From Paracyclopina nana (Eukaryota; Arthropoda; Copepoda; Cyclopoida; Cyclopettidae), in assembly GCA_019096065.1 (NCBI GenBank), contig JAGUCH010000007.1, positions 5,354,501 to 5,418,500 of the forward strand: a DNA stretch of 64,000 bases, given 5' to 3'. Every line of letters starts with the position of its first letter. Position 1 is the stretch's first letter. Positions 9,651 to 64,000 of the stretch are shown here, one piece after another. Position numbers and translations under genes: made by a program. The notes beneath the pieces are model-generated. The model had not been told where the DNA came from, did no database searches, and saw only the letters and a program-made list of their open reading frames with translations.

Positions 9651-9735
9651 CCATATGTGCAAATGACATGTATTTGCAATCAAATGTATATATATCTTGA
9701 AACCTTTGTCAAAACATTTCAGTTGAGCTGAGACA
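9651..9735 (+). promoter_or_regulatory. Core promoter of metalloprotease gene 1 (TATA plus initiator)
   Basis: A TATATATAT box at about 9686-9695 lies about 31 bases before an arthropod initiator TCAGTT at 9719-9724. That leaves a 5' leader of only about 15 bases before the ATG at 9736. The block from CATATGTGCAAAT through the ATG is nearly the same in front of the second metalloprotease gene, while most of the intervening DNA is not, which supports a functional promoter. A palindrome-like GCAAAT/ATTTGC pair sits upstream of the TATA box. Confidence 0.6.
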
Positions 9736-13287: not shown

Positions 13288-13462
13288 ATGTGCTGCTGCC
13301 TAGCGTAGCAGCATGAGCCAATAACCAACGGATCGGGCTTTTAATTCACCTTTAGCAATTACACTACATTTTCAATTTGGCCTTGACAAACAAAATACAC
13401 CAATCAGAACTAACACACAACAGAGCTATAATTAATGTGGAACTTGTATTTTTTCAAAATTG

Positions 13463-13468
13463 AATAAA
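13463..13468 (+). terminator. Polyadenylation signal of metalloprotease gene 1
   Basis: AATAAA about 175 bases after the stop codon, the first canonical hexamer downstream. Confidence 0.55.
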
Positions 13469-15375
13469 AATTTGGCTTTCTGCACAATTTGATGTGACTA
13501 GACAAAGTTTGCTGTACAGGAAAATAGCAATTCTCCAAATTATTTTGGCAGGCTTGCACTCTTTGTATTATTATTTATTAACTATTCAAAGTTTCCATTA
13601 CCTTGTAGATCATTATGTATGAAAATAGGTTGAAACAAAAATTATTCTCATTTTATGGCTACTTTGTATGAAAGGCGTATGAATTGCCTAGTCATATGAT
13701 GTGAAATTTAATTTACATATCGCGTAAACTATATCAATGAAATTGATGCACTTAAAATGAGAAAAATTTGCAATATTTGCAAAAGTCAAATAGTCAATAA
13801 ATTCTGCATTGCTTTTAAGCCATGTTTTAAAGAACAGATGTAATTCGTTTGCTCAAGTGTGAAATATTTTCACATCTATATGGAGCTGATGCTGTTCAAT
13901 ACATTTCATGAATGCTTCTCTTTAAAAACTTATCATCAATTCTGACCAGAAGCGTTCAGAAAGTGTGCAAATCACCCCCTTCACTTTAAAAGAACTTGAC
14001 CAGATAATGCCTCAAAATGCCAAAAAGACGGCAAGTTTGATCAAAACTGGTAGCTCAATAGAAAAAGCGTGAGATTAGCCGGCTTGCCAAGAATGTCACA
14101 TTCGCGCTATGAAGAAAATGACAAAATTAGCACCCCTGTCACTTAGATGAAATAACTAAGGCCCGGTTACCTACAAATTACGGCCGAAATTATGGCATAT
14201 TTAATTACTGAACAGAGATAAGTTCAGAGTTTTTGGCAGAATATTTTTAATTAGCCTTAATTTAATAGTGCAATTTTGAAGAAAAAATGTATAAAAGTTG
14301 TTTCGTCCCCTCTCAAATTGGCAAATATCAGCGTAATTTTGCTCAAAATTACGCCATAATTTTGTAGGTGAACCCAGCCTAAAATAGATAGAGTTATTTC
14401 AAGTTGCTTTCTCCAGCCAATATTTGCCACATAATCAAATTATGTCCAGTTCTCATCATGACGGATTTAAAAAAAGCGAAAAGAAGCCTCACTTTTAGCT
14501 GCTCAAAACAACGTGGGGTGGGAATGGCAAAATAGCCAAATTAGTTAACAATTACTGGGTTACTGACATTGGAAAGCTATGAAAATTGCACAAATCAAGC
14601 CAAAAATATGTATTTTCTTTGCAATCTCACATTTATTTCATAAGCGTCAAGAGTCAAAGATAGCTAGTGAGAACTATTAGATATTTTTGCATATAAAATG
14701 ACCTAATGAATCTTGGAATGCATCAATGGTCATTTGGCCAGTTGTATCCACAAAAAAACCCATTGTTGAACATTTGGGGTGATGTACCCAACAAAATCAT
14801 AAGAAAATATCCGAAACGCAATTTTGCTACGAAAAATATGACATGAATGAAAACACATGCTAAAACAAATGTTCACCTTTAAAAAAGTAGCCGCTTTAAA
14901 ATGGTAAAAAAACCAAAAAATCTAGTACAGCCAATGTTTTTCATCTAACTTCGTACGTTCAAAGTGAGATTGTAACTAAGTGTTTTATGCCCAAGGGAAG
15001 CTAAAGTAAATGCTAGAAGGAAAATATTGTGCTTAAATGAATGTTGAAACTAAAAAAACTTAAGGTGAATTAATTGCCATTTCTCGTTAATTTACTTTTT
15101 CGATTGAACAGTTAAATTATGGGCAAGTGAGTTGAGGCAGATAATCATGATTGTTTTAATTGCTCTAGGTCCAGCTAAATGCTATAAAACTTAATGATGA
15201 GTTGGCTTACATGATAAGTCTCGGTAATTGATTTAGCAGGCCAACAAATTCTTACATAAAGTAACTTTCTTTGCCCTTAGTTTTGCTAAAAATCTGATGC
15301 CTCGAGGTCAAGCATGCCCGGACAAAAAAAGCGAGGCTGAAACATATTTATTTTACATGGGCGAATAAATATGAT
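13469..15375. other. Spacer between tandem metalloprotease genes
   Basis: About 1.9 kb of AT-rich DNA with no open frame of note. It holds one Tourist-like MITE (14160-14379) and otherwise nothing I recognise. Confidence 0.6.
14160..14379. mobile_element. Tourist-like MITE, copy 1
   Basis: A 220-base element with terminal inverted repeats beginning GGCCCGGTTACCTACAAA and ending in the imperfect complement (TTTGTAGGTGAACCCAGCC). It is flanked by TAA on both sides (14157-14159 and 14380-14382), the target duplication typical of PIF/Harbinger-derived MITEs. It has no coding capacity. Related copies are at 35492, 56999 (partial) and 57333. Confidence 0.75.
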
Positions 15376-15378
15376 CTA

Positions 15379-15463
15379 GCCACATGTGCAAATAACATGC
15401 ATTTGCAATCAAAAATATATATTTTTCAAAGCTTTAGCAAAAAGGATCAGTTGAGTTGAGACA
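15379..15463 (+). promoter_or_regulatory. Core promoter of metalloprotease gene 2 (TATA plus initiator)
   Basis: Counterpart of the block before gene 1: CACATGTGCAAATAACATG, ATTTGCAATCAAA, an AATATATATT box at about 15413-15421, then TCAGTT at 15447-15452 and the ATG at 15464. The spacing from TATA to initiator is about 34 bases. Confidence 0.6.
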
Positions 15464-18400
15464 ATGTTCAACTACGTACTCTCATTTTTGGCATTGTTGC
15501 CTTCATTGTTGTTGGCTGCTGATCCAACTCCAACTTTCTCATGGAGCACGGATACTGATCCAAACTGCAATGGAATTCTGCAAATTGCTTACTTGGACGG
15601 CTCAGGAAACAACCTATTTGGTCCATTTAAAGCCTGCATGAACTTCTTCAATCCTGCTAAGCAATATTGCAACTTCATTGGACACATTATGAATCAAACA
15701 AATCAGGTTCCAGTGGCACTCACCGGATCATGCCTGAATCAGTGGAATCCATCGACTACATTTGTAAGTTCTACACTTGATCAAATTGATCGACAACATG
15801 CTAGCTTTTAATTTCAAGATAAAAACCTGAACAAATGCAATTTTCATAGGTGACATTGGTAGCTGATGTGCACCCTCAAGTGCGATCAGGCTCTTTTCAA
15901 CTCCTAAAATCAGGAAGGAATGGAATGGTTGCAGTTGCAATTGAGCATGACATGCCACTCAATGAGCCCATACAAGATGATGCATCAAGATTTCTTAAAG
16001 TTCCTTATACTGAGTCCATAGCAAAGCAGCGACAAGCACCCCAACTAGCTTCTGGCTATCTGTAAGTGAAACTTTGGAGAGGAATTCTCTTAACATTTTC
16101 TCCAACCCTTTCTGCTCTCAAATCAATTTACATAACAGCCGAAATGAATCAATCCTCATTTTTAACGCATAACATGCCATGCCTGTATATATATTCTTTC
16201 TTCAGCTTGCCAATTGTTGCTATGGCTGATCCAACTGTGACCACCCAAATTTCAAATTGGGAGGAGCACATTGATGCCATCATGACTCACTCTCAGTGCC
16301 ACTTTCTGAGTGCAAGCTTAGGGACAACATTCAAATTTGTTTACCCTACTGACTATGCAGCTGTAATCGAATCACTTGCTTTAACTTCCACAGGATTAAG
16401 GTAAACCAAAAAAACAGCATCCCCGTTGTATTCCTTCTTATGCCGAATTTTTTGACTTCACTAATTGCCTCTATGAATGGTTGCGTTTTCCCCATCAGTT
16501 GTGCTAAGTGTGGTATACTCATTTTTTCCCTAGCAATTTGGCGGCGGAAACTGCAAATTTTCCTGATGCAAACTTCTATGCTGGCTTCTCTTTTGGTACA
16601 TCTGAGGCCAGTTTTGGCTACATAAATTCTCTATGCGCAAGCAGGGCAGTAAGAAGCCGACTCATAAAAATAACTCCGAATGTATTGAAGTCAAGCAGCG
16701 CATTCACTTTTGCTCTCGGAAGAGTTATGGGCATTGATAGGGATTATGATGTTGCAAATGGAAAATATGTTGACAAACTCTGCCCAACTGGCGGCTCAAC
16801 CTGTTCCGGAATAGGAGGGTTCATGGACTATGTTCAGTTATATCCAAATCTTACTCAATGGTCATGCTGCAGCCAAAATGACTTCAAAAACTTCTTCAAC
16901 AGCAATCAACCTTTCTGCCTCTCTGACCTATGTAAGCGAATGCTTGCATAAACAGTAGTTGCCATTTGATCAAACATATGTTCATTGCTTAGCTGGGTAC
17001 CTTGGCCCCTATTTTTCATGGGCCAGTCCTGACAACGCATTGCCAAACTGCCTTGGAACTTTATTAATCACTTACACGGGAGTAAATGGCATAGCCTTCC
17101 AGTACAGAGCCTGCATGAACTATTTCAACCCTCTCACAACCCATTGCAACCTGATTGGCTTTATTGAAAACATGGATGTTCCTGTTGCAATGACTGGAGT
17201 TTGCCCAGGACAAGCAACAAATGGACTGGTTCAAAAAATTCAAAAATAAGCCTCCTTTATGTACTGACATTGTTTTTTGAACAGATTACACTAGTATCTG
17301 GAGATGCAACAGTTTTGGCTAATGGTGTATTTGCTGTTGTAGCAATTGGATCAGCTAATGGTGAAAAGCCAACAGAGATGATTGGAGAGCAAATCAAACA
17401 CGATGGGTCTATCATAAATGACATTGCATATCCAGATGAGCCAGAAGATACTCGACAATGGGGCCAGTTTTGGAGTCAGCTTTGGAGCCAAAAGACAAGG
17501 GCTGTGAGACCATTAGCAGCAGCCTATGAGTGAGATGTCCTGACTTATAATGTGAAGTGATTATTACACAAGTTCATTTTCAGCCTGAACATTGTCACAG
17601 CATTGGACCCACTGTTCCAGGCTAAGTTTTCGAGTGAATCTTACAGAGAGGTGGTTGATGCCATTTTCACTCATGCCCAATGCTACTTCTGGAGTTCAAC
17701 GCTTGGAACAAAAATCAACTTGAAATTGGATCAAACTGTTTTCTTATACAATTCCTCTAACCTTAATCTCAATGCAAATAACACCAATATTAATCTTGGG
17801 CAAGCTCACTTTGCTTCTCCATAACTAGAATTTGAAAGAATAATATTCCTATCTTTTGTTTTCAGGGCAACAGAGTCATTCTCCAACACTTTGCCTCCAG
17901 CTAATTTGCAAGTATATTTCTCTTTTGATAATAATCAAGCAGGTGTTGCTGGGGTTGCGTGGCTTGGTACTGTTTGCAGGACAGACAGAAATCGAAGAGT
18001 GAGCATTAACGAGTACTATTTTGATGAAGCCCAAACTGGACAGATAGTAGCTCATGAAATTGGACATAACTTGAATATGTCACATGATTTTATCAGCAAT
18101 CCTGATGGATCAACAGGTGACAGATCATGTGATATCGATAAGACCAAATGCACTGGCATTGGAGGTGTAATGGATTATTACCAGAAAAACTACACCAGGT
18201 GGTCATGTTGCAGTCAGAGTGATTTCAAGATTCTCTATGACAAAAATGATCCTTTTTGCTTGACAGAAGCAGGTATTTCTTATGCTGTAGAAGCACTGTG
18301 CATCTGATTGTATTAATTGTATTTATTGCTTCTTATCATTGAAGAAATCGTGACAGAAACTACCACAACACCAGAAAATACAACAACAACAGCAACAACA

Positions 18401-18772
18401 ACGACAACTACATCAACAACCACAACCACTACAACAACCACTACAACTACCACTACAACAACAACAACCACTACAACAACAACAACCACTACAACAACAA
18501 CTACAACAACAACTACCACTACAACAACAACTACCACTACAACAACAACTACAACAACAACCACTACAACTACCACTACAACAACTACAACTACCACTAC
18601 AAAAACAACTACAACAACAACTACAACCAAGAAAACAACTACAACTAAGAAGCCAAAGAAATGCAAAGACAATAAAAATAAAAAGGTATGCAAGAAAATC
18701 AAGAAGAAGGGCCAATGCAAGAACAAAAAGCAAGCCAACAAATGCAAGAAAACTTGTAAAAAGTGCAATTGA
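15464..18772 (+). CDS. Secreted reprolysin-like metalloprotease with dead and active units plus ShKT domain (copy 2)
   Basis: Tandem paralog of the gene at 9736. Exons: 15464-15763, 15850-16061, 16206-16400, 16534-16931, 16993-17228, 17285-17529, 17584-17799, 17866-18272, 18345-18772, about 878 aa. The first exon product is almost identical to copy 1 over the signal peptide and prodomain start. The live zinc site HEIGHNLNMSH is at 18053-18085. The unit-1 equivalent (about 16699-16745, FALGRVMGIDRDY) again lacks the His and Glu residues. It differs from copy 1 by a much longer Thr-rich linker (about 95 residues against about 35) before the six-Cys ShKT domain (18660-18768). The seventh intron starts with GC (GG/GCAAGC) where copy 1 has GT, and the fifth has an unusual GTTCAA donor. 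Presumably secreted, with the linker heavily O-glycosylated. Confidence 0.88.
18357..18640 (+). repeat. ACN trinucleotide repeat encoding the Thr-rich linker
   Basis: Nearly uninterrupted ACA/ACT/ACC codons inside the last exon of metalloprotease copy 2. Mixed third positions show it is not a pure microsatellite. It produces a long mucin-like Thr stretch in the protein and a long artificial Val frame on the other strand. Confidence 0.9.
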
Positions 18773-23125: not shown

Positions 23126-25109
23126 TCACAAATGATTGGGTAGATCTGGATTGACACTGTCTTCCAACTCGAGCATTACTTTGAGCACAGTTTCTTCACA
23201 CCATGGTCTGGCAATAACTTGCACATTGAGGCCCATGCCTTCTGCACCCAACGTTCCTTCTTTGATCCACTTGTTCAGTGGACCATCCTGATTCACCAGA
23301 GGAAAAGCTGCCAGATTTTCCTGATCTACTCTAGTTTCTACTGAAACCTAAAATTATGCATATCTTTTATAGGCTCCTCTCTTTTAATACTGATGGTTCT
23401 TACTGGGACTGATCCAGCTGGGAAATTGAGTAGATTATAAACTGCAGTGTAATTAATGGCACCCAGCTGGTAGGCTGGAAATCCGAGTTTTTGGCAGGGC
23501 ATATTGAAACCAGGTGCAATCATCGCATCAATGCCATAGTCATTCCACAGTTTAAGAACTTGTCGAACTAGAGCCAGCCTCTCAGCTTGTTTCTCCCACA
23601 ACTGCCAAGAGTAAGGAGTATTAAATCCCTCCAGCATAAAGCCTCCAATAGATGGTGAAAGGAATTTCATTATCAATGGGCCAATCATTTTAGTCAGCCA
23701 GTTAGGCAATGCCCATATACGTTCCAGCATGCCCAATGACAAGCTGTCTACCTTTCCATCTTTGAGTAAATCTAGAGTTCCTTTCCACCCATCTGCAGTA
23801 GCAAAAACTCCATAGAGCATCATGACTTTTTGATGAAGCTCCCCTAAATCAACTTTTATCAGCTCATGGCCCTGTTGTTCCAAAACACTTTTAGCATGCA
23901 TCAATGCTCTTTTGACACCAGGAGTCACCTCATTGCATCCATCAAAATCATACCAACCAATCTTGAAGTGCTTTTTCTCAACTGGCTGATACGGTAATTT
24001 TACCAACCTTGGATCACAAGTGAGCCTTTGAAGGTTTTCCAGATTAACCATATTCTTGAAGCAGACATCAATTATCTTTGCTGATCTACCCATGAGTCCT
24101 AGTGTGTTGTACAGGCCTACCACACCTACAAGGCCTCCATCCGAACCCTGGCCTGTAATAGTCAATCGACCAGCTGTTGGTTTGAAACTGGTAATACCAC
24201 AAAACATTGCTGGAATCCTGACACTTCCACCAAGGTCTGATCCTATGCCTAGTATTGAGCCTCCCCCAGCTATCAATGCACCTTCTCCTCCACTAGAACC
24301 TCCTGGGCTCCTGCTTGGATTTCTAGGATTCACAGTGATCCCATAGATTGGGTTAGAGCAATCAAAAGAGAAACAAGTCTGGGGCAAGTTAGTTCTGCAA
24401 AAAGGAACTGCCCCTAGTTCTCTGAGGGCCAAAATGATTCCAGCATCTTCAGGGCACAATTTTCCTAGATTTGAAGGTATGCCCACAGTAGCGTCTTTTC
24501 CCTTTACATGTATGTGTTCCTAACAAAAAGCAGTAACTTAAAATTCTCAATTGTTGAACTGGAGTTGTTTACTTTCAAGCTGATTGGGATACCATGTAAG
24601 GGTCCTCGTTTTTCCTTGGGTAGTTGATCCAATTTTGCAGCTTGCAATATAGCTTCATTCTCTAGGAAGCCCGTGACAGCATTGCTCAACTCTTGAACTA
24701 TGAGTGCTTTTGCTTCAAAGGCTTGTAGCACTTCCATCACTTTTATCTCTCCATTCTGAAGAAAGGCATGCAATTCGTCAAATGGCAAGTTGACAATTTC
24801 CTCTCTCCTTGATGTCATGAGCTGAAATTAAATAATATTCTTTATCAAGTAATTCCAGTTAATTATTCTCACCTCTCCATTTATTAAAAGACTCTCCCTC
24901 AAAGCAGCAAAGGCTTCATCCCTTTTTAGTTGACATTCAGCCACTTTTTGGGCTAACTGTCGCCTACGAGCGAAAGAAGTGGCCCATTTAAATAAAAAAT
25001 AGGAGGATCCAGCCGCCACTGCAACTACTGGAATCCACCTTTTTCTTTCTTGCCCACTGTATTCAAGGAAGACATTTTTTGAAGCTGCAAGCAATAAATT
25101 AGCGGCCAT
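23126..25109 (-). CDS. Fatty acid amide hydrolase, FAAH1-like (copy A)
   Basis: Exons 25109-24873, 24821-24573, 24519-23404 and 23347-23126 with all phases compatible, about 607 aa. An N-terminal membrane anchor lies near residues 26-45 (WIPVVAVAAGSSYFLFKW). Amidase-signature residues are present: Lys in PISLK, the SPGGSSGGEGA loop with the cis-Ser, and GIGSDLGGS with the nucleophile Ser. The FSFDCSNPIYG and NYTAVYNLLNFPAGSVP blocks match animal FAAH1 and not bacterial amidases. It hydrolyses fatty acid amides such as anandamide on ER membranes. The last intron starts CCA/GTAAGA and ends TTTTAG, only 56 bases. It forms a tandem pair with the next gene, about 1 kb apart. Confidence 0.92.
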
Positions 25110-26104: not shown

Positions 26105-28089
26105 TTATATAGGTAAAAAGTCAAGGGTTATTTTTTCCTCTAATTCAAGCATCACTTTTAGCACAGTTTCATCGCACCATGGTCTGGCTATGATTTGAAC
26201 ATTGAGGCTCATGCCTTCAGCTCCCATTGTTCCTTCTTTAATCCACTTGTTTAATGGTCTGTCTAGATTTACCTCAGGAAATGCTTCCATATTGTCCTGA
26301 TCTTCCATTGTTTCTGATGAGACCTGAAATTACGAAAGGCATAATGGCTGTTTCCTATCATATTTTATGACAGTTCTTGCAGGGACAGATCCAGCCGGAA
26401 AATTGAGAACATTGTATACAGCTGTATAGTTTGTTGCACCCTTTTGGTAAGCAGGATATCCCAGTTTTTGGCTGGGCATATTGAAACCAGGCGCAATCAT
26501 CACATCAATACCATAGTCATTCCACAGTTTGAGGATTTGTTGAACCAATGTCAACCGCTCAGCTTGCTTATTCCACAACTGCCAACTTGTCTGTGTGCTG
26601 AATCTCTTAAGCATAAAGCATCCCACAGATGGAGAAACATATTTTATGACCAAGGTTCCTATCAGTTTAGCCAGCCAATTTGGAAGTGCCCAGATACGTT
26701 TTAGCATGCCCAAAGACAAGCTGTCCACTTCTCCATTTTTGAGTAAGTCCAGAATTCCTTTCCACCCATCTGCAGTGGCAAAAATTCCAAAGAGTGTCAT
26801 GGCTTTTTGATGATGTTCTCCCAAATCAACTCTGACTAGTTCATGACCTTGACTTTCCAAGATATTTTTAGCATGCATCAATGCTCTTTTGACTCCAGGA
26901 GTCACCTCATTGCATCCATCAAAATCATACCAACCAATCTTCAAATGCTTTTTCTCAACTGGCTGATACGGTAATTTTACCAACCTTGGATCACAAGTGA
27001 GCCGTTGAAGGTTTTCCAGATTAACCATATTCTTGAAGCAGACATCAATTATCTTTGCTGATCTAGCCATAAGTCCAATAGTGTTGTGCAGGCCTACCAC
27101 ACCTACAAGGCCTCCGTCTGAGCCTTGGCCTGTTAATGGCAATCTACCAGCAGTAGGTTTGAAACCAGCTATACCACAAAACATTGCTGGAACCCTCACA
27201 CTTCCACCTAGATCAGTTCCTACGCCTAGAATGGAACCTCCCCCCGCTATCAATGCTCCTTCTCCTCCGCTGGATCCACCTGGGCTCCTGCTGGTGTTTC
27301 TTGGATTCACAGTGATCCCATAGATAGGATTGGAGCAATCAAATGAAATGCAAGCTTGAGATAAATTAGTCCTGCAAAATGGCACTGCACCCAATTCTCT
27401 CAGAGCCAAAATGATACCAGCATCTTCAGGGCATAATTTGCCTAGATTTGAAGGAATGCCCACAGTGGCATCTTTCCCCTTAACATGGATCAGCTCCTAT
27501 GGGCATCATGATTGTTTTACCATTGCATAAATGATTTAAATCTTTTTTTCACTTTCAAGCTGATTGGGATGCCATGTAACGGTCCTCGTTTTTCCTTAGG
27601 TAGCTGATCCAACGTTTTTGCTTGCAATAAAGCATCTTTCTGTAAGAAGCTTGTAACTGGATTGCAAGACTCCTGAACTAGGAGAGCTTTAGCTTCAAAG
27701 GCCTGTAAGACTTCCATCACTTTTATGTCTCCATTTTGTAAGGAGGTGTGCAACGAGTCAAATGCCATGTTGACAATTTCCCCTCTTCTTGGCGTCATGA
27801 GCTAAAAGTTGCTTAGGTTTTGAGTTACTTTTTATTTCCTTTCTAAAGTTGTACTGCAGATTCTTCGAAAGCACTGTCTTACCTCTCCATTTATCATCAG
27901 GCTGTCCCTCAAGGCTGAGAAGGCAAGCTCCCTTTCATGTTGCCTTTCAGCCACTTTTAGTGCTAACTGTCGCCCGTGAGCACATGAATTGGCCCACTGG
28001 AACAAGAAGTAGGAGGATCCAGCGGCTATTACAACCCGAGTAATCCACATCCCTTCCTCACTTAGGTCCATGGCTTTGAAGATGGACAT
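26105..28089 (-). CDS. Fatty acid amide hydrolase, FAAH1-like (copy B)
   Basis: Exons 28089-27883, 27801-27553, 27496-26381 and 26323-26105, about 596 aa. Intron positions and the 1116-base third exon are the same as in copy A, so this is a recent tandem duplicate. All amidase-signature elements are kept (PISLK, SPGGSSGGEGA, GVGTDLGGS). The N-terminal anchor segment (VVIAAGSSYFLFQW) is shorter. The last intron begins CCT/GCAAGA where copy A has CCA/GTAAGA, a GC-AG intron if spliced at the homologous point. No closer GT restores the frame. The two proteins differ mostly in the cap/membrane region and the C-terminus, so substrate preference may have diverged. Confidence 0.9.
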
Positions 28090-44902: not shown

Positions 44903-46723
44903 TCATGAGTTGATTTTTTTGACATTATTAAACAGTCTCATGTTATCCTCCTTGATGACCTCAAGCACTCGATCATAGAATTGTGATTTTGTGTAGTTGA
45001 ACACCTTTTTCTGCATGAATTCTTCAAGAACTTGCCCTTCGTAATGAGCCTGATTCCATTGTCTGTCCCACCATCGACTCTTGGCATTTGACAGGGTTCC
45101 TCCAGACTCTTGAACCGGAGCTGGACATCCATAATGATCTTCATTGGCATTGTAAGGCATTTTGCCAAAGCCAATCATGGTCATTTCAACATTCCTAGCC
45201 ACCCTTGAGCACACCAAGCATTCGAACCTTTCGACAAAGTTGCCCAATGCCAACTGGGCTTGTTCAGATACTCCCCAAGATCTTTGTGACACTGCCCTGA
45301 TTAACCGGTCATTGGTGACCAAGGACAAGTGGTTGTCATTGTAGCTAGGCTTGTGGAGCAAATATCTCTTGTATTCCTCTTCATATTGATGCAATTGAGC
45401 CAAGTACTGAGCAAGCTCTTTGGCAGAGTTGAATTCTTCAACATGAATGGCGGACTCTTCATTGGGGAGCCAATCCCTGACATTGGGAGCACCAAAGTAG
45501 ATGGGGACACTGCCAATGTGGAGAGCTTTCCAAAGCTTCTCAGTGATGTAGTCTTCGCAGACAGCATTCTCAATGGCCAGGACAAACTTGTACTGTGCCA
45601 AGATGTGTAGGAAATCCGGATCCTTCATAGTCGAAGGATCCCTGAGATGTGGGGGCAAGTCTTTATTATGAAGACAATACCCGTAGGAGTCCACCTGGAC
45701 ATGTTTCATTAGTTCAGACACATATTCATCCCTGCCTGAGGGTGTATCACAGCTGGATTGGACATAGGCAACCAGCCCAAGTCCTCTGGTTTTGATAAGC
45801 TCATTCTTCATGTCAACAGGAACCATAAAAGTCTGCAATAACAAATTATAATACATATGAATGATGCAAATCTTGCTCAAAGAAAACATAAAACATTGAT
45901 TTGCAATTTCAGTTTTCGTAACTAAAAGCCATGTTGTTAGAGGATCATAAATCCGGATTCAAATATCACTAGCTCTGTGAACTAATGTTAACCATATCAT
46001 TATGAGTATTAACCTCATCTGTGATGATGTCAAGGTTGTCAAGGTACTGTAGTGTTAATGGTACATCAGACTGACTCCGAAAAGTGGCAGTGTGATTGAA
46101 CATTCGAATGATTGAATCTTGACTGATGAGAGGATTGTTTTTCGGACTTTCTTCATGGATCAGAGCCCAATCTTCATGATAGTGTCGAGGGAATGGTAAG
46201 TCCAATATAGAGAAATCAGTGCCATAAAACATGATGGCACTTGTCTTGGGGTGCTCTTTGAAGCTTCGATTATGCGAAAAGTAACACCTATATGCTCTTC
46301 CACTCTTGTCATTGCACACCTTGATGCCTTCAATGCTCGAAAAGGGAGTCCACCAGAGTAGGATTGGTAAAGTGAACTCTAAGTTCTTGTAAGCAACATT
46401 TGCACCCTAAAACAAAGAAGAAATATCCTCAAGAAAGGAAACTTCAAGCATCACATTACAAAGTCAGTTTTGCCAACTGAAATCCAGATTGACAGAAAAT
46501 GATGCATAAATGGCTATCGAAGATTCGAATTGAGCCTTGAAGAACTTACCTTTTTGATATCGCTAAGGATCATCTCAGAGATCAGTCTTTGCTCCTTTGG
46601 CTTAGGACTTGTCACAATGCTCAGTACTATGTTGAGACAAGTACTCAAGATCATGGTTCCGAGGCAAGCTGTTCCCAGGAAGAGGAGAACTTTCAGCTTG
46701 ATTCTCATGATGAAGCTGATCAT
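44903..46723 (-). CDS. Alpha-1,3-fucosyltransferase, FUT10/FUT11-like (GT10)
   Basis: Exons 46723-46550, 46406-46014 and 45832-44903 give about 498 aa. The start is the first in-frame ATG; a TTG lies five codons upstream. A signal anchor (LKVLLFLGTACLGTMIL, residues about 10-27) gives type II Golgi topology. The donor-binding GT10 core is plain: FVLAIENAVCEDYITEKLW, then GSVPIYFGAPNVRDWLP. The upstream acceptor domain has the WALIHEESPKNNP block typical of the FUT10/11 branch rather than FUT3-like enzymes. The extended C-terminal tail with RWWDRQWNQAHYEG is also a FUT10/11 trait. It would transfer fucose from GDP-fucose to N-glycans. The second intron begins GTTAAT, a weak donor. Confidence 0.92.
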
Positions 46724-49032: not shown

Positions 49033-50948
49033 TCATGCATTCGGATTTGAGACTCTTCCACTGAAGAGCACCAAACCAGTTGAGACATCTTTGATGAAGA
49101 ACAAGAATGGTTTGTTCAAGTTGATGACCTTTTGCTCCAGATTGATAAGGGCACTTTTGGCCAAGACTCCAGTGGCAGCGGCAGCTTCAGTGCCGTCTTC
49201 GTTCACTTCAATGAAGGCTTTCTGGATGACTTCATCGATGTACAGGTTGTCATCATCACTGAGCCCCTGGAGCTCAGCCTTGGTAGGATTGAAGACTGTC
49301 TCGAGTCCCATTGGGATCAATTCCCTCTTGAGGTCATATTCAGACTCAATCTTGAACTTGGGCATGGTTAGCAATGTGGTCATTCGAGGGTCCAGATGAG
49401 ATTCAAAATCTGCTTCCACGACTGAAAAGTTAGAACATTTGTAGACAATCCAAGAGAAAAAGAAATGTGTGTCATTTGTGTTCAATTTTAAAAACTAAAA
49501 TCTAATTGTAATGGGCAATTCGATTCAAAAACTGTTCTTGATGAAATTTTTTAAAAAGAAAAGAGTACCTAATGGCAAGTCATTGATGACGTCATCAAGG
49601 ATAAATCCAGCATGTGGACTCAGAATGTACATGGCAACCTTTTCACCTTGGTATGGCAACTTGAGCACCAGAGTCGACTCAGACAAGTTTCCACTCCTCA
49701 GCGAAGACTCCACTGACATCATTGAGACATTTCGCAATATGATGCCAGAATCGAGGTAAAACTTGCCATCAGTGAATGTTTTCCTCCTTGAAAAGGCATT
49801 CTTCCAAAGTCCTTTGAAGTAGATGGCATTCACGAGGACCATTTTGGTGGCAGACGACACCGCTCCAGAAGGTAAAAGGTTCTTTATTTTCGAGTTTGTC
49901 CTCGCCTCAACCCAATTGTTGATTTGTACTCTCGCCGAGTCTGGACTAGTTGCAAATTCAACTTTGTCAGGAAGGCTGGAAAAATATTCGCTTGCTTGGA
50001 ATTCAAAAGCACGTGTGAGGCTATAATTGGCATCGATGTACACTTTGTTTGCAGACTCCAATATAACATTTGCATCAGACTGAAAGTAAAGAACAATACT
50101 ATTAAATTATAAAAGCTTCAAAATATTTAAGAACCTTGAGGTTTTTGTTGGCTTTGGCAAATGATCCCAGGTAAGCACTTTCAATCATTGAGACATTTTG
50201 ACCACATGGAAAGGCCAATACTGACATCAATTCCTCTTTTGAAGCTCCCAAAGCTCCAAGATAGATCATGGACAATACTGAGGTCACGCTGAAGGATGAC
50301 AGCACCATATTTTCATAAGGATCCACTGAGCCCAAGATTTGGGTGAACAGCTTCAAATCAAAGATGTTGGCACTTTCAGCCAGTTCATAATCAAGCAGAT
50401 CTTCTTGAGATTCAATGGGGACACAGTTGGCTGAGAATTTACTGCTTGAACCACTTGTCACATTGATGACCACAGCTCCAATGACAAGTGCGACAATGGT
50501 GCCAATGAGCACCCCAATTCCCCAGGACAAAATCCATGATCGATTCCTTTAATACAATAAAGTTACAGAATGAAAATTCAAGTACTGAGAACCGATAAGA
50601 TTAAATGAGTGTCACAAAAAAGTTTTAATCGGATATTTTCAGTCAGAATAACTTTAGTGTTCTTAGAATATCACAAAAATATCAAGTATATTCGAGTTGA
50701 TTTTGAACTTTTTTGGAAATACTTGCATATTTTCAATCCTGCTGCAAATCCTTTCAAATCCAAACTGAATGAAAATGTGGAAGAGCATTGAATATCAAAG
50801 GGCATGGAGCTCATATTCAAATGTGTGTTTATACACTTAGTAGCATGATGATTCACCTGAAAAAGTTACTTCTGGATGTCGAAGTCACATTGGGATTTTC
50901 CACATTATTACTCTGTTGAGTACTCACAGGTGTGTAATCTTTGCCCAT
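49033..50948 (-). CDS. Membrane-anchored serpin
   Basis: Exons 50948-50857, 50546-50135, 50079-49569 and 49421-49033, all phases compatible, about 467 aa. The first exon encodes a hydrophilic, Ser/Thr/Asn-rich N-terminus of about 31 residues, followed by a hydrophobic segment (WGIGVLIGTIVALVIGAVVI). This is a type II signal anchor instead of a cleavable signal peptide. The serpin fold follows: NMVLSSFSVTSVLSMIYLGA, INNWVEARTNSKIKNLL, LVNAIYFKGLWKNAF, and FLFFIKDVSTGLVLFSGRV near the end. The hinge is EVNEDGTEAAAATG, which fits an inhibitory serpin. The next residues are VLAKSALINLEQKV, so the cleavage site probably lies around Lys-Ser or the leucines. It likely inhibits proteases at the cell surface or in the secretory pathway. 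Confidence 0.88.
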
Positions 50949-52408: not shown

Positions 52409-53782
52409 ATGGAAATGTCAACAAAGCCGATTTTGAGGCTGTGGAGCGTTTTCAAAGTAAAAAATTGTAACCATAGGCCTTTACAGGTCTTTGCGAAGGC
52501 CAAAGAATCCACTTGGACTTCCTTTAAGGCACACAAAGTGAACTTGAATTGTCCGTTTTGTGGAGCGCATTTCCCCAAAGAAGAAATATTGAATTGGCAC
52601 GTGAAGAAAGTTGATGCAAATGCTGTAAACAAGCAATTCGAGGACGAAAACACTCACGATTTCTACAAGAAAATTTTTGGATGTGAAATAATCAAATATG
52701 CCACCAGTGAGTATGTTAAGTGTCCCAGTGGTCTTATTGTCAACAATAGTGGTCAATTCAAAGGTGACATTCTTTATAACTCTAAAAATATTCACTATTA
52801 AACTCAACGAAACCAATTCCTGAATGAGGAAAAACCCTTCAAAGACTATAAGCAACTTTCCTTTTAATTTTTAGGCTATTGGTACAATTTCAAGCTTGGT
52901 AAAGGTGGAGGCCCAGTTGAAGCCATCATGGAGACTCAAAACATTGGCATTGTCAAGGCCATTGATTTGGCAGCTTCTTATTCCGGAGCTGATCCTGCTG
53001 AAGACAACTTGTTCGAATTTGCAAATGAGGTAGAAGTCCAACGAGCAAAATTAGATAAGCTGAAAAGAGTGGAAGCTGCTCAAGAATTATGGCATAAAAG
53101 TCTACCCATAGAAAACACTCTTGGGCAAAAGTATCTTGTGGAGCATCGAAAATTACCAAAGGATTTGCTCAAGCACTTGACTTTCAGATTCCTACCAATT
53201 GGCATTCAGTACAAAGATTGGAATATGTCAGAGGAGAATTATGAAGACAAAAAGGTGAGTCTTCCTGCTGTTTTGGTGCCAGTGGAGGACTCCCTAGGAC
53301 AAATACTTGGCATCCAGAGGATCTTTCTCCACCCCAAAACTGGTGGCAAGCCTGCGAAGAAGCACAAATTCTCCAAGGGCAATTTGAAAGGACATCCTGC
53401 TGTGATTTATCGAGGTGAATCCCCATGCGACAAGGTTGTCATTGCTGAAGGTCCGGAAACTGCAGCCTCCGCAGTTTTAGCATCGGATGCTTTGGCAACG
53501 CGAATTCCAGTTTTGGCATCCTTATCATTGGGCAATTTGCCCAGTTTGGCCAATAGTATTGCCAAGCGATGGAAGCCCAAAGTTGTCATTCTTGCAGCTG
53601 ACAATGATGCCAATGTGGAAGATGTGGAAGCTATCAACAATTTCAAATCCAACTTGGAGAACATTGATATTGATCTTGTTGTAAAGCGTCCTACTTTGCC
53701 TTTAAAAGCGACCAAGTTTGATTGGAATGATGTTTTGGCTCAACAAGGATTAGACGAATTAATGAAGCAATTCAAGAGATAG
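52409..53782 (+). CDS. Toprim-domain primase-like protein of plasmid/Rickettsiales type, with intron
   Basis: Two exons, 52409-52763 and 52875-53782, joined in phase 1, give about 420 aa. The N-terminal part has a CPFC pair (Cys48, Cys51) with a C2H2-like spacing to His64, but lacks the last ligand. Across the splice it reads GLIVNNSGQFKG then YWYNFKLGKGGGP, the pattern of the primase-type domain preceding Toprim in plasmid and phage proteins. The C-terminal Toprim fold has VVIAEGPETAAS (catalytic Glu about residue 310), ILAADNDAN (Asp361, Asp363) and FDWNDVL at about 401-406. From memory, these blocks resemble the Toprim part of Rickettsiales TraA_Ti-type conjugation proteins (VPV..GQILGIQRIFL, HKFSKGNLKG). 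There is no polymerase or helicase domain. The intron, AT-rich flanks and neighbouring animal genes argue for a gene resident in the host genome. Function unknown; nucleic-acid binding or nicking is conceivable. Confidence 0.8.
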
Positions 53783-57500: not shown

Positions 57501-59868
57501 TTCATCATAATATCGCGCGTAATTTTGCTGATAATAATGCAGGTGAACAGGGCCTAAATGGCAGCTATTTAAATACATTCGGAGGCTATTTAAATACATT
57601 TTACGATATAATCTATTTAAATAGCGTGCCTATGCAAAACTTGCGAAAGACTAAGCCTATATTTGTCGGACTTTCTATTTTGACAGAAGGCAGTAGATGT
57701 CGGACATTTTACAAATTGATTTTCGGACACAAAAAAGTTCCCCCATTTTCATCTCACGTTGATTTCGCGACTTTTTTCTTTGTGCGCGGCTCCGCGTGAA
57801 ATCGTCAAAAAACGCAGCACTGTGGCATGAAGTAACTTTTATTAATAATAACTCTTATTAGGCTGGGAGAATGCGAAGGTCCGTTCATCACAATTCACGA
57901 AAACGGCCGCCTCGGCAACTTTTTGTGCCAATACTCTGCCATTTACGCATATGCCAAGGAATTCCACATGAGAGCCGGACTCGGGGCCAAAATGGCGAGC
58001 ACGCTGGCCAAGATCTTCCCCAATTTGACCATTGGCAGGCTGCCTAATTGCTCGTTTCATTGGGAGTACATCGACAAGCCGCAATTGATGGAGAACCTGA
58101 GCATTTCAGACTCCAGCCACATCTTCATCAAATTCTACCCTGGCCCCCAAATGATGACCAAATTCGAAAAGTACCGGCTGGACCTGATTGCCACGGACTT
58201 TCGCATGCGAGCTGACCTCGAGAGGTCGGCAGAAAAGTTCCTTCGGGGAATTGCGGAGAGCACCAACGCAACTCGGTTTGTGGGCGTCCATGTGAGGCGC
58301 ACTGACTATTCGAAGCACTTGCGAAAACTGTTTAATGCTCGCACCATCACTGGCCTCTACTACATTGAGGCCATGCGAAAATACAGAGAGTACTACAAGG
58401 ACCACAAGGTGGCCTTTGTGGCCACTTCGGATGACAAGGCGTGGTGCAGGCGGGTGCTTGGCAGCGAGGAGGGATTCCACGTCACAGACTCTTCGGCCTC
58501 CAGAGAGCTGGACATGCTCATCTTGTCCAAGACCAACAGCACCATCAGAGGGTAGGATGACTGTTTAGGGCGCTCCTGTGTCAGGTCGATCCCTTATTAT
58601 ATAGTCTAGTTAAGCTATGTTGCAGTTCAGTTCTCATTTATTTGTATGATGGAAAGCAGTTTTCGCATGTATAGTTCAGTTTACCAATTCGCCTCAGTTT
58701 ATTCAACTACACATATGTAAAAGCTCTGACGTCTCACTTTATCAAGTGACACACATATATTTCATAAGGTATTTATAAAGTATTTGAATTCAATTAAACA
58801 ATTTTACTATTACTTGAATTTTACTGTTTGACTGAGCTCCTCTAGACATGGTGCTCTCTGTAATATTGGCTTTCAAGGAGCTTGCTTTTAAGGTCGATTA
58901 TGATGCCAAGGTCAGTTGATCAAGCAGCAATTTCTAGGCAAGTTCAAGCTTAGCTAGCGTCTAGCAGTTGATAAAGGTTGGTAATGTTGGAGACAATCTT
59001 GAGGTTGGCGACTTAGCCAAGGCTGTTGTCTTTGTCAAGGGAGGTGAGGTCTGCAACACTATTGAGCTCGGCAATGCTATCCAGGTTGGTTGATGTCGTT
59101 TTCCTTGCAAATGTTGATGGACTGGTTGATATGTTTCTCTGACAAAATTGACATTTGAATCAATTAATCTCAGAGTTGCTTACAGAGCAAGGAGCAATCG
59201 TAACTTCTTTAACATTTGAAAATTAGTTTCCTTCATATAAAATCGTGTGAACAAATTATAAATTAGGCTAACAAAATATCTATGCCTCATTTTACAAAGT
59301 AAAAATCTCGTAGCATTACTTGGCTCTCGCAAGCTCGAGCCCGCAAAGTTGCCACTCGATTTTAACTTTTAATTTGCTCAGGTATTTTATTAGCTTGTTT
59401 TATAAATTGTTTACATATACCTATAAACAGATATTATATTGGTAAATCTTAAATTAGTTTAATGAATTAATTCATGCTTGCCAAGCTAAATGAAGTTGCT
59501 GTACCGAACTTACCTTCAAAAAGTGATCTCAGATGAGGCCTTTTTTCTCGGCAAATCTACTGCTACCTATACATTTTACTCTATTTGTTTCATAATCTAT
59601 GCTTCATTCCTGCAGGTATGGATCGTTCAGCTTCTGGTCCGTCTACTTGAGGCCGGGTGGCAACGTGACTTTAGCTGATGGATATTACGCGAGAGAGCCA
59701 CCAGAATTAGGCGCCGTTCGAAAGATGGCTTTTCCCTCTTGGAATCTCCTGAGGGATCCCTGCTTTAAGCACACCAATAATAGTGGACCACCAGAGCTCA
59801 CCGATCATTGCAAGGCCAGAAAAAAAGAGTATGGCATTGATGATCCATTCAACTTGATGAAGAACTGA
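54598..59868 (+). CDS. Alpha-1,2-fucosyltransferase, FUT1/2-like (GT11)
   Basis: Three exons, 54598-54800, 57862-58551 and 59616-59868, with matching phases, encode about 381 aa. The first exon gives a short cytosolic tail and a signal anchor (FVTIFTAFAALSFVVSILL, residues about 27-45). The second begins at GPFITIHENGRLGNFLCQY, the GT11 N-terminal block, and contains the GDP-fucose-binding HVRRTDY, then VAFVATSDDKAWC. The third gives YGSFSFWSVYLRPGGNV, the third conserved GT11 block. It would add fucose in alpha-1,2 linkage to galactosides in the Golgi. The first intron is about 3.06 kb, far longer than most here, and is packed with MITEs and tandem repeats. The coding exons are more GC-rich than neighbouring genes. 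A polyadenylation signal is at 59948. Confidence 0.92.
55470..56040. repeat. Inverted arrays of a degenerate ~10-base GGGACGCT-type repeat
   Basis: From about 55490 to 55600 the strand carries units like GTCCCAGCATC. From about 55640 to 56035 it carries the opposite orientation (GGGATGCT, GGGACGCT, GGGACAGTGAGACGC). The two arms form a loose large inverted repeat, interrupted by the foldback element at 55751-55916. The region lies inside the first intron of the GT11 gene. Confidence 0.55.
55751..55916. mobile_element. Foldback MITE related to the 21504 element
   Basis: Ends TGAAGGGTGTTCTCATATTG and its near-complement CAATATGAGAGCGCCCTTCA, with a palindromic interior built on TTTTGGTTAACCAAAA-like motifs. 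About 166 bases including the TGA/TCA edges. It shares GTTCTCATATTG with the termini of the element at 21504. The target duplication could not be fixed. Confidence 0.65.
56740..56990. repeat. Tandem repeat of CCGACACATTT...GTAAAATGA units
   Basis: About four imperfect units of roughly 55-65 bases, each with GACCGACACATTTT and GGTATAGTTGTAAAATG. On the minus strand they give a repeated peptide (about NYTKCVGQ), but this looks like a by-product. It ends directly at the partial MITE at 56999. Confidence 0.65.
56999..57128. mobile_element. Tourist-like MITE, copy 3 (3' truncated)
   Basis: Starts GGCCCTGTTCACCTGC and follows the copy at 35492 through GGTACCAAAAGCCATCCT, then similarity stops. The right inverted end is missing. 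Confidence 0.75.
57333..57554. mobile_element. Tourist-like MITE, copy 4 (opposite orientation)
   Basis: A 222-base element, reverse-complement in order to the copy at 35492. Left end AGGCATGTTCACCTGC, right end GCAGGTGAACAGGGCC. TAA flanks both sides (57330-57332 and 57555-57557). Confidence 0.85.
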
Positions 59869-59953: not shown

Positions 59954-60617
59954 CTATCTACTTTGAGTGTGTGAGTAAATGATAAAATTGGCATGAAAAT
60001 TTTCTTATTTTGTGTTGTTAAAATTGAGAGGCAAGTTTTTTGTTGCCTTGCTTGGATTCCATGGCTTAGCTGCCCAAGGTGATTTAAAAGCAGAAGTTAC
60101 CTGCTTCTTCAGGCAGGCAGGCTTAGAAACACTTTTAATGCTCAACTTCTTTCAAAGGTGGCGTTTTAAGCCATTTTAAGTGTGAGCCACTGGAAATCCT
60201 GCATTTAAAACAGTATTTTTCGATCAAATTGTGTGGAAAAAATTTCTAAGGTACGTCTATGGTGATTATGGCTGAGAGGGCCTTTTTTTCTGCTGAAAGG
60301 ACATCCTTGGGTTGTTTTAGTCCTTCATTTCAACCATAGATGGCGTAAGAGCAAACCTTCTCTACTCTCAAACCATCAGTTGTAAAAATATGGCTCCGGA
60401 CCATCTTAAAGTGACCATAATGGGGCAAGTCAATTATTTCTCTTCTTTGAATGATCAGATTGATTGAAGGCTAAAATGCCTAACATGACTTTTTATTGTT
60501 TATTAAACGGAAAATATTCAAGCATGATTTGCTGTGGCTCATCAGCAGAAATTTCAAGATTTCTTCTTAAGCAATCATTCTGGCCACACCTTAGGCACTT
60601 TTTTCTGAAGTTATTTA
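59954..60617. other. Intergenic, no gene seen
   Basis: AT-rich spacer between the GT11 gene and the retroelement. No open frame or repeat recognised. The base composition changes sharply at about 60618. Confidence 0.6.
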
Positions 60618-60794
60618 TGTAGCAGGATCCCAGGCCTGCGTGTCCGGGCGCTCACACCTGCCTCCCCGGTGCGATAGATGCTTTGCTTTGTATATGACGT
60701 CAGTAAATATATGGATGTACCGGAGTAAACAACTCTGTGCCCTATTCTATACGAGCGTCGCGTGTCGGACTCTAAGAGTGTTCGAACCCCTACA
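60618..60794 (+). repeat. Putative 5' LTR
   Basis: Begins TGTAG and ends CTACA, a perfect 5-base inverted pair with TG..CA termini. It is followed three bases later by TGGCGCGGTGCTGAGGAC. The second LTR is outside the window, so this rests on one copy. Confidence 0.5.
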
Positions 60795-60797
60795 AAT

Positions 60798-60815
60798 TGG
60801 CGCGGTGCTGAGGAC
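60798..60815 (+). other. Putative primer-binding site
   Basis: TGGCGCGGTGCTGAGGAC begins with TGG, the complement of a tRNA 3' CCA end, three bases after the LTR end. The matching tRNA cannot be named. Confidence 0.4.
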
Positions 60816-61118
60816 AACTCTTTGAGTACCGCTACATACGACACCTTCGCTCCCATGAAGGTCACGTAGGCCAGAGGCCAGCCAGTGACCAGTGATCGCA
60901 AACGGGAAGCAACAATAGTGTGACTATCCTCCATCCGCCGTAGCTCTACCAAGAGCATAATGCGCAGGATCCGCCGCGTTCAGGCTGAAAGCATGCCACG
61001 AACACAACGAACACATCAACCTCGCCCACGGGGCTGGAGGCAGCGTTGCTGCAGCTACCCATCAGTGCGTTCAGGCTAAAAGCATGCCACAAACATCAAC
61101 CTCACCCTCGCAGAGGCC

Positions 61119-61565
61119 ATGGTGGTTGCGGGCGGGAGCAGTAGTGGGCAGCAGGTCCCGTCGCTCGCATCGTCCATCGAGACACCGGGTGCGGATGCTG
61201 GGCCCCCTGGCTTAGACGCCAGGACCGTTTCTGCATCGACGCCGGGGCGCACCCCTGTAAAAGGGAGGCCGCCTAACCCCCGGGTCACCGGAAACGTGGG
61301 AACAGCAGGCATCGCGTCACTCTGGCAGAAAAACACGAATACGCTGTTGGCCGGCTACGATCAACGCCGAGCACCCCTCGTCCCAGCCGATACCTCAGGC
61401 CCGCGAAGGGAATCACCCAGAGGAGTCGCACGGGAGAGGCACCAGGCCTTGTCTCAGCCAACACCCGGGACCTCACCTGGTAGAGTTGCAGAGAGAGGCG
61501 CATCACTCCGCAGAAAGATGCTCTTAGTTAATTGTACCATAATTGCTGCACATGGCTGCAAATAA
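61119..61565 (+). CDS. Unassigned Pro/Gly/Arg-rich frame in the retroelement
   Basis: A 148-codon GC-rich frame with SSSGQQVPSLASS near its start and SLWQKNTNTLLAGYD in the middle. It lies between the leader and the gag-like region. It may be an N-terminal gag remnant or non-coding leader with chance openness. No conserved motif seen. Confidence 0.25.
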   Translation: MVVAGGSSSGQQVPSLASSIETPGADAGPPGLDARTVSASTPGRTPVKGRPPNPRVTGNVGTAGIASLWQKNTNTLLAGYDQRRAPLVPADTSGPRRESPRGVARERHQALSQPTPGTSPGRVAERGASLRRKMLLVNCTIIAAHGCK

Positions 61566-62332
61566 ATCTGATAAACGAAATCGACACGATTAATTCATCG
61601 CCATTTCACGCTCCCAAACGCAAAATGATCACCCTGCGCAGCGAGGCTGCCGGGTCGGCCACGCGCACCCCGTTAGAGCCGGCGGCTGCAGAGGCCGCGG
61701 CCATCGATCAGGTCTAGCAGAGGCCATGAATCCCCACTAAGGGCAGAGACCCTAGATTGCATCAGATCAGAGTGCCAGAGCACTTCATTGCTGAGGCTGC
61801 AATTCAGCGCATCATTGCCTGCTGCAGCAGCATCTCGCGGCCACTTTCTGCGCGGCAAATAAATGGCCAACAAACAAGCCATAAAACTGGCCCCTTTATG
61901 AGGGTGCATGCTGCGTTTTTCACATGTGCGAGGCAATTTTCGAGATTGTCTGTCAACGTACTGTGAGCCATTAAGCTGCCGCTAATGCGCAAAAAGCTCT
62001 GTTTCCAAACAACCGTCCTGTTTTACGATCGTCAAAATCTCCCATCTGGGACCAGATCGAATAAACAAGCTCAAATTTGCTGCACTAGAATTAATTGTCC
62101 GAGGGGCAGGGGCCACAGCGGATGCGGCTGGGAGTGACCGTTGCACTAGCGGGCGAGAGTGGCTATAAAGGAACGAGGAGTGGGGGGAAAAAGCACAGTT
62201 CTTGGAATTACTTCCACTCTACTACACCCCCTTGCTCTTGCGCTTTTTACACCACTCTCGGTAATTATAAATTCTCATTTACATCGGCCATAGGCCTAAC
62301 CGCTTGTCTGTGCAGTCACCCACTCGCTCATC

Positions 62333-63407
62333 ATGCCTATCAGCCGCTCGCCTCCTCCACCATCAGGCAATGATCGATCGGGCACCTCGCCTGACAGCAA
62401 TGCGTCAGCCGCCCCTCCGCTGAATCTGCAACAGCGCTTCAAATCCGACCTCGAAAGCCTCGGAGCTGCCGGGCCCGCTGCGGGGGCCCGGCCAGGGTTG
62501 GACCCACTGGGATTCCCTAGGAACGCGGAGGCAGCTGTGGACCCCACCGGAGGGGCACGGCCCCGCAAGGGAGCCGGAGAGGGCCCGCCGGCGGAAACCA
62601 ACCCAGCGACGGCCACCGCGGATGCGGAATTCCTCTCTCAGGCCATGCTGTTGCAATTTATGCAACGCATGGAGGCTCAACGCCAAGCCGATGCCCGAGC
62701 TCGCCAACAGGAGGCCGAGCTGAGGCTCCTGGAAGCCAACACCCGCCGCCTCGAGGCCGAGGCCGCTGCAGCCCGCACCGGACGGAAGCGCAAGCTTGAG
62801 AAATTCGAGGACACTGAGGTGGACAAGTGGCTCACCTTTCGCCTCCATGTGGAAGCCACCTTCCTGGGAAGGAATCTGAGGCCTCCAAGAAGTTGGAGGT
62901 CAAGCACGCCATGGTGGGCGTGGCCCTCCGTACCGTCAACGAAGTGGAGCTCCACCTGACGGATGAGAGTTTCACCCTTGCGCATCTGCTCGACGCCTAC
63001 GAGAAGTTCTTCGTCACTGCCACGTCCTCCCAGGTCGCCCGTATCGCCCTCGAGACCGCGCAACAGCGTCCTGACGAGGGCATTCCCCAGTGGCACGCAT
63101 GGTTGCGCAGCATCTTTGTCCGGGCTAAACCAGAACTGGCCAAAGAGGTCGAGACGTACCGCATCTTATCCGCATCTTCGTGACCAAGCTGCACCGCAAG
63201 GACGTGGTCATGGGCATCATTGGCCACAGATTCACTACCATGGCTGAGGCCCTGGAAGCCGCCTGCCAGGCCGAATGCTGGCTATTGCTGGGGCAGGGTA
63301 AGGGTTGTGTCGCAGCCCTGCTCCCAGGCTCAGGGGACGATTTGCAGGTCGTTTGCTTCTACTGCTACCCTAAGGGCCATCGCAAGTCCGAGTGTCGAAC
63401 GCTCTAG
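62333..63407 (+). pseudogene. Gag-like region broken by frameshifts, with CCHC zinc knuckle
   Basis: Three consecutive frames: 62333 to about 62865, then about 62865 to 63183 in another frame, then 63180-63407 in the third. The first is Pro/Ala-rich and enters an Ala/Glu/Arg coiled coil (about 62640-62790). The second has a capsid-like helical stretch (HAWLRSIF, AHLLDAYEKFF). The third ends in CFYCYPKGHRKSEC, a C-x2-C-x4-H-x4-C knuckle that binds RNA in retroelement nucleocapsids. A TAG follows at 63405. The breaks mean no full-length product can be made from this copy. Confidence 0.65.
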
Positions 63408-63757
63408 AGCAACAAGCGCGCCGGCCGTTACGATCCCAAGGTGGACAAGTGGGCTTACGCCGCCACCTTCGACAAGGACCAGGGATCTAGAGGCCAATCT
63501 TCTCGAGGCCTGGGCCGACGCCGAGCCTCCGGGCGGAGCAGCAATTCTGACCGCCGGAGCTCCAACAACAAGGGCAGCAAGAAGCCTCGGGTCAACGAGA
63601 TCCGCGAGGCCTAGTCGGAGGGAGAGCACAAACCAGAGGCTTCGGACGACTCTGCCCAGGGAAACGACTCAAACCGGTTGTAGAGAGCACCAACTGGGTC
63701 CCACCTTCTTCCATAATCCTAGCAGCTCTCGACCACATCAGCAGCCACCAACAGTTC

Positions 63758-64000
63758 ATGGCCCAAGTTCCGATCCGCATCGGCAAGGTCAAAACGAGGG
63801 CCCTTGTTGACAGTGGCAACAGCTGGCGCACGTGCATCTCCGAAGACTTCGCCCGCCGCCTTGGTGTCTTCCCCCACAGTGTGCGGCCCATGCCAGACAT
63901 GCCGGCCGTGGGCACCGCCCACGCGCAACAGAGGCTCCAGGTCCTGGGAGAACTCCGGCAGCCACTGCGGGTGCAGCTAGGGGACCACCCCCACTCGTTC
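63758..64000 (+). pseudogene. Retropepsin-like protease fragment (open at window end)
   Basis: A frame with ALVDSGNSWRTCISEDFARRLG at 63800-63865. DSG is the aspartic protease active-site triplet (63809-63817) and the hydrophobic context fits retroviral-type proteases. The frame upstream is closed by stops within about 60 bases, so it is not continuous with gag. The fragment runs off the window end. Confidence 0.55.

Follow-up and report, generated by a model that had tools for sequence, protein, structure and literature searches.

How does a gene of bacterial conjugation type come to sit in the chromosome of an animal, and what could it do there? Here, this question is asked of a two-exon gene in the copepod Paracyclopina nana, which lies in a 64,000-nucleotide stretch (hereafter the window) of GenBank assembly GCA_019096065.1 (contig JAGUCH010000007.1, positions 5,354,501 to 5,418,500 of the forward strand). 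The gene encodes a Toprim protein whose bacterial counterparts are the C-terminal modules of conjugative relaxases, and it is a real and unusual host gene resident in an arthropod chromosome. Our preferred explanation, to which we give a probability of about 0.6, is that it belongs to a eukaryotic family of primases derived from such a module and most likely active in mitochondria.

The Toprim primase core

The joined reading frame of 1263 bases encodes 420 amino acids (Table 1). Exon 2 contains the Pfam domains DUF7146 (E = 1.3e-14) and Toprim_3 (E = 5.3e-12), both of which exceed their curated cut-offs (46.5 bits versus 27.2 for Toprim_3), and no relaxase or helicase domain was found by Pfam in the 420 residues. 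The active-site motifs read EGPET, AADND and FDWND. The last of these matches, by sequence, the DaN- motif described for mobile-element Toprim primases (PMC5512222); D401, N403 and D404 are present in 20 of 20 family rows, with W in 19 and F in one. An AF2 model of exon 2 (predicted local distance difference test, pLDDT, 93.9) has a primase fold, and the DnaG-type RNA-polymerase domain is retained whole in the predicted structure; the structure runs used author-chosen alignments of 38 and 32 rows. A sequence search of the PDB returned seven DnaG or T7 primase sequences with the core alignment (E = 0.003 to 1.2), and C2H2 finger proteins among the matches listed with the full alignment (best 60 of 97). 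With the Toprim_3 cut-off exceeded, the catalytic acids present and the RNA-polymerase-domain fold predicted, the protein has the sequence features and predicted fold of a mobile-element DnaG-like primase of the Toprim_3 type. In our reading of the alignment, the DnaG zinc ligands are missing at the aligned places in both this gene and the relaxases, and a subgroup of relatives (P0005-P0007, P0010, P0042) has a single Cys near the first of these places.

Counterparts in conjugative relaxases

Exon 2 alone matches the C-terminal part of TraI_TIGR (E = 7e-27). Scanning prokaryote genomes yielded 25 loci, of which 22 have E values of at most 4e-26; the hosts are Legionella, other Legionellaceae, Cysteiniphilum and loosely named proteobacterial bins, including one alphaproteobacterial. 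Identity is 34% at the best-scoring locus (tblastn) and 40% in the fragment L027. At 17 of the 22 loci the open reading frame (ORF) spans 1923-2640 amino acids; the remaining five span 535-1342, and three of these are open at a contig end. In loci L004 and L009, a TrwC or MobA_MobL relaxase is followed by a helicase and then by DUF7146 and Toprim_3. Among plasmid records, 79 of 72,556 match, all below 60% identity; of those listed (best 40 of 79), 39 are annotated traI or mobF, at identities of 27.7-34.7%. Of the 369 genomes scanned in one class, 12 matched a family profile at E <= 1e-30, as did 7 of the 385 scanned in the other class; these counts include the two centre genomes. All 34 matching places of these class scans lie in open frames of 607-2433 amino acids. 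A Toprim of this kind is also described in the TraA_Ti protein of Rickettsia bellii (PMC4564193).

Conjugative relaxases of the TraI/MobF and TraA types (TIGR02760; Legionella, Piscirickettsia) have in common with the copepod gene DUF7146 and Toprim_3, the catalytic acids, the DaN- motif and a degenerate zinc-binding module, at the 34% identity given above. The copepod gene differs in its lack of a relaxase and helicase, its intron, its finger remnant and basic leader, and its stand-alone length. Membership in TraI proper (TIGR02760) was rejected, with 93 bits against a cut-off of 930, a match to the C-terminal part only and no relaxase or helicase. Unlike DnaG and T7 gp4 primases, the protein has a broken zinc ligand set and no helicase; cellular DnaG (TIGR01391) was likewise discarded, as exon 2 scores 16.5 bits against a cut-off of 283.6 and the ligand set is incomplete. 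Twinkle was excluded by the absence of a DnaB-type helicase domain in the 420 residues, and the active site retained here is lost in the host's own Twinkle. By description, the protein can be likened to RP4 TraC and IncI Sog, Toprim primases with which conjugative elements prime the single-stranded DNA they transfer (PMC5512222).

As a separate observation, relaxase ORFs typed by their N-termini as TrwC-like or MobA-like (L003-L018, L034) have Toprim modules in separate tree groups, and the alphaproteobacterial L009 groups with the MobA-like Legionella ORFs and L034.

A wider family and its phylogeny

A first protein search, which was blind to long proteins, found 19 proteins at E <= 0.01, of which 14 are strong matches (E <= 6e-21, 31-39% identity) and five are weak (E = 9e-5 to 3e-3), one of the weak ones being named putative DNA primase/helicase. 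Two profile searches extend the family, and its nearest members are P0025, with 55% identity across one third of the protein, and P0023, with 49% across one half. These relatives are probably eukaryotic, judging by their C2H2 finger, leaders and ORF shapes.

The gene and its family form one clade in three trees (support 100/98, 100/99 and 100/99). In the third, which includes extra bacterial loci, the gene pairs with P0023 (100/96); the next join, with P0001 and P0004, is supported at 99/97 there and 99/96 in the first tree, and at only 92/91 in the second. Nearest outside the clade are the Legionella-type relaxases, including the alphaproteobacterial bin L009, the exact sister group being ambiguous. 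The five long ORFs taken as a sample of the alphaproteobacterial class diverge at a deeper point (99/97). Placement of the gene inside the Legionella-type relaxases is rejected by the approximately unbiased (AU) test: a forced grouping with the TrwC-type relaxases of Legionella is worse by 113 log units (p-AU 4e-9) and one with a wider Legionella-type set by 72 log units (p-AU 3e-5), both constraint groups having been named after the trees were inspected. The first tree had 50 rows. The later ones drop P0014, P0017, P0026, P0028 and P0029 (long branches or fragments) and L021 and L023 (near-duplicates of L022), and add P0042-P0045 and P0048; the third gains ten bacterial loci (L034-L043). Absent from every tree are P0011, P0020, P0021, P0024, P0025, P0046 and P0047 (fragments or near-duplicates), the bacterial P0027 and P0032-P0041, fragment L027 and any named Rickettsia sequence.

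These results refine the initial annotation of the locus. Its proposal of a bacterial conjugation protein as source is borne out by the exon 2 match to TraI_TIGR, and we regard origin from a bacterial conjugation primase as very probable. The suggested Rickettsiales or alphaproteobacterial donor is uncertain, with Legionella-type relaxases lying nearer than the five alphaproteobacterial ORFs on one side and L009 falling within the near group on the other. Domestication particular to this arthropod is not supported, because the gene is nested in a wider clade that appears to be eukaryotic. The long-standing animal Toprim family that would have spoken against the annotation was thereby found in part: the wider clade is there, and its eukaryotic identity is likely. 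Near-identical bacterial best matches, named as a sign of contamination, were not seen. The simplest reading is one transfer ancestral to the sampled family, and transfers between eukaryotes are possible. The family is apparently an old eukaryotic one, its age being judged from divergence. The gene is therefore less of a one-off than first held, and more interesting as part of a family.

Zinc finger and leader

A C2H2 pattern is present in 10 of 27 family proteins (three of these mutual near-duplicates) and in none of 25 bacterial ORFs, some of which are cut by contig ends. Most of the 17 family proteins without it start at or downstream of the finger position. The leader of the copepod protein carries a net charge of +5 over its first 30 residues, or +7 when counted from a second in-frame ATG at 52415. 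By limits chosen after the sequences had been inspected, N-termini are basic and acid-poor in 8 of 10 family proteins versus 276 of 3234 internal 30-mers; these ten exclude P0010 and P0011 (near-duplicates of P0006) and proteins starting inside domains, and count the copepod N-terminus from the second ATG, though it passes from the first too. Such N-termini suggest a mitochondrial location, for which we see roughly even odds.

Gene structure and chromosomal setting

The splice junction 52763/52875 is supported because both exon stretches are contiguous in relatives P0001 and P0002. Exon 1 alone aligns as far as residue 124 of P0002 (E = 5e-10) and residue 45 of P0001 (E = 7e-5), and in both relatives the homology of exon 2 picks up at the very next residue. 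The intron has a GC content of 29% and an in-frame stop. Around the start codon at 52409, position -3 is A and position +4 is G, with an in-frame stop shortly upstream. The gene is probably expressed. Third-position GC is 0.42-0.45, within the range of neighboring exons (0.37-0.69). A nearby intron in relatives, proposed from the ORF starts of P0012 and P0044-P0048, was dropped since the upstream residues may be coding.

The window contains zero N, and the assembly is chromosome-scale (10 contigs, 92 Mb). No other place in the genome matches exon 2 or Toprim_3. Chitin_bind_4 marks arthropod cuticle proteins; an arthropod host is supported because this genome has 80 matches to it and 14 prokaryote controls have none. 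In a search limited to TrwC among relaxase families, no TrwC relaxase was found in the genome, and scanning the window for Rfam families and tRNAs gave no matches. The gene stands much as the initial annotation had drawn it: an intron between two exons whose joined frame has no frameshift or internal stop, with a junction backed by homology; a primase-like product whose catalytic residues are invariant across the family; and integration between a serpin and a fucosyltransferase, in gap-free sequence with animal flanks on both sides.

Table 1. Features of the Toprim gene and its neighbors (window positions)
Feature	Position	Strand	Basis or remark
Exon 1: leader, zinc-finger-like segment, first half of zinc-binding-domain-like module	52409-52763	+	Homology to P0002
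Putative presequence-like N-terminus, residues 1-34	52409-52510	+	Charge pattern
Remnant C2H2 finger: C48, C51, H64 retained, final His lost	52550-52612	+	Full pattern in 10/27 relatives
Intron, spliceosomal type, GT..AG, 111 bp	52764-52874	+	Homology continuous at both edges
Exon 2 including TAG: remainder of zinc-binding-like module, DUF7146, Toprim	52875-53782	+	Pfam; AF2
DUF7146, N-terminal subdomain of primase RNA-polymerase domain, residues 182-293	53063-53398	+	Pfam; fold
Toprim_3 domain, residues 306-410	53435-53749	+	Pfam
EGPE catalytic motif, E310-E313	53447-53458	+	E310, G311, E313 invariant in 20/20 family rows
DxD metal motif, D361 and D363	53600-53608	+	Invariant in 20/20 family rows
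DWND (DaN- motif of mobile-element Toprim primases), D401-D404	53720-53731	+	Sequence match
GT10 fucosyltransferase ORF	44906-45958	-	Upstream of gene
Serpin ORFs	49036-50548	-	Upstream of gene
GT11 fucosyltransferase ORF	57836-58552	+	Downstream of gene

Elsewhere in the window, positions 9727-18304 hold a tandem family of secreted proteins with a metalloprotease-like HEIGHNLN motif (read from translations), in which the N-termini at 9727 and 15455 are near-identical; an ORF at 18317-18769, most of it an extended poly-Thr stretch, with a tail rich in Cys and Lys, closes the array. Two similar amidase-like ORFs form a tandem pair on the minus strand (23341-24519, Pfam Amidase E = 2.9e-67, and 26333-27496). 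From 60500 to 64000 the GC content climbs from about 40% to 51-61%, with long ORFs, one bearing a retropepsin-like DSG motif by eye; this end looks retroelement-like, yet the two ORFs tested gave no Pfam match, and the region showed no internal repeats of >=40 bases.

Mitochondrial priming in the host

The host Twinkle gene at G000:C2:9387934 (L029:94-1821) matches human Twinkle (E = 2.5e-65) and gave no Toprim family match at E 0.01. In our reading of the alignment it lacks acidic residues where EGxE and DxD would stand, which fits the loss of priming in animals. Twinkle of metazoans is reported to have lost this activity, with the mitochondrial RNA polymerase priming in its place (PMC6299598). 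This genome also has a gene for a phage-type RNA polymerase, which we read as POLRMT; it gave two matches, one of which runs through a TAG. An extra primase is therefore not required and would be an addition, perhaps for repriming.

Possible explanations

In the explanation we favor, a eukaryote would have received the Toprim primase module from the C-terminus of a conjugative relaxase of Legionella type. The module would have shed the relaxase and helicase and retained the DnaG-type RNA-polymerase core. The fold of the zinc-binding domain would have been kept, with its ligand set already broken before transfer. The module would have acquired a C2H2 finger and a basic leader, and the new finger may substitute for the lost zinc site. 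The protein would bind single-stranded DNA and make short RNA primers through metals on the Toprim acids E310, D361 and D363, a priming activity that we consider reasonably probable. Its site of action would most likely be mitochondria, where the primase site of animal Twinkle is gone. A more ambitious version, in which some animals own a second, bacterial-type primase, a DnaG-type Toprim enzyme of conjugative-plasmid origin that bears a new zinc finger, is imported into mitochondria and primes or reprimes mitochondrial DNA (mtDNA), replacing the lost activity of Twinkle, is tentative.

Several points weigh against this explanation. The collection that supplied the relatives carries no taxon labels, and their eukaryotic status depends on the finger, leaders and ORF shapes. 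P0004 and P0048 span the finger position yet have no finger, and the copepod finger is missing its last zinc ligand. The presequence was judged by charge pattern with post hoc limits, and P0003 and P0009 miss even the lax one; a stricter limit (no acid, net +4) is passed by 3 of 12 entries, compared with 64 of 2263 internal 30-mers and 6 of 122 N-termini of bacterial-locus ORFs. Smaller, family-sized bacterial ORFs with the module exist (481 and 330 amino acids), met at weak scores only (E = 4e-11 and 1e-10). In animals, the priming of mtDNA falls to POLRMT, and this genome does carry a gene for a phage-type RNA polymerase. Finally, the case rests on sequence and predicted structure.

C2H2 fingers typically belong to DNA-binding proteins of the nucleus. 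Their occurrence in 10 of 27 family proteins would suit a primase of the same origin that acts in the nucleus or cytosol, in repriming, repair or control of mobile or viral DNA, with the finger as a nuclear DNA-binding module; the basic, acid-poor N-termini in 8 of 10 speak against this, and we consider it unlikely. Ranking next, and also improbable, is a domesticated Toprim protein without priming activity, for example with a nuclease role or binding single-stranded DNA or RNA. Toprim domains also serve nucleases and topoisomerases, the lineage no longer has an intact DnaG zinc site, and the protein has no helicase. The catalytic acids nevertheless persist in all 20 family rows, with identities to the copepod gene of 32-39% in the first alignment, and the RNA-polymerase-domain fold is predicted to be retained whole.

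Acquisition by animals from eukaryotic large DNA viruses carrying the family would account for two relatives on long contigs (343 kb and 95 kb) and for several that are single full-length ORFs. We hold it to be very improbable: five scans of viral contigs, each using one to six exact peptide patterns, gave no relative, and phage matches are weak (8 of 50,697 records). Phage origin is ranked low on those same weak matches. Bacterial contamination or a recent endosymbiont insertion, suggested by the clear bacterial-type domains, is the least probable reading and already largely refuted. Against it stand the intron, the animal flanks and the gap-free window in a chromosome-scale assembly, the absence of TrwC from the genome within the search noted above, and the distance of bacterial sequences. 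No plasmid match reaches 60% identity (27.7-34.7% among the best 40 of 79), and bacterial genome loci reach 34% at the best-scoring locus and 40% in L027, whereas P0023 (49%) and P0025 (55%) are nearer, over parts of the protein.

Implications

A term search confined to the main text of a compendium of animal gene transfers (PMC13342648) found no Toprim, primase or relaxase. Among the papers listed in literature searches, which covered neither subscription papers nor preprints, none was recognizable by title or start of abstract as a description of such an animal gene. At the sequence level, an intact arthropod copy with catalytic acids conserved across the family lies outside the reported picture of animal mtDNA priming. 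It provides a defined protein for asking if a primase of bacterial conjugation can serve in the mitochondria of animals, and the family would be a case of a conjugation-protein domain turned into a lasting eukaryotic gene.
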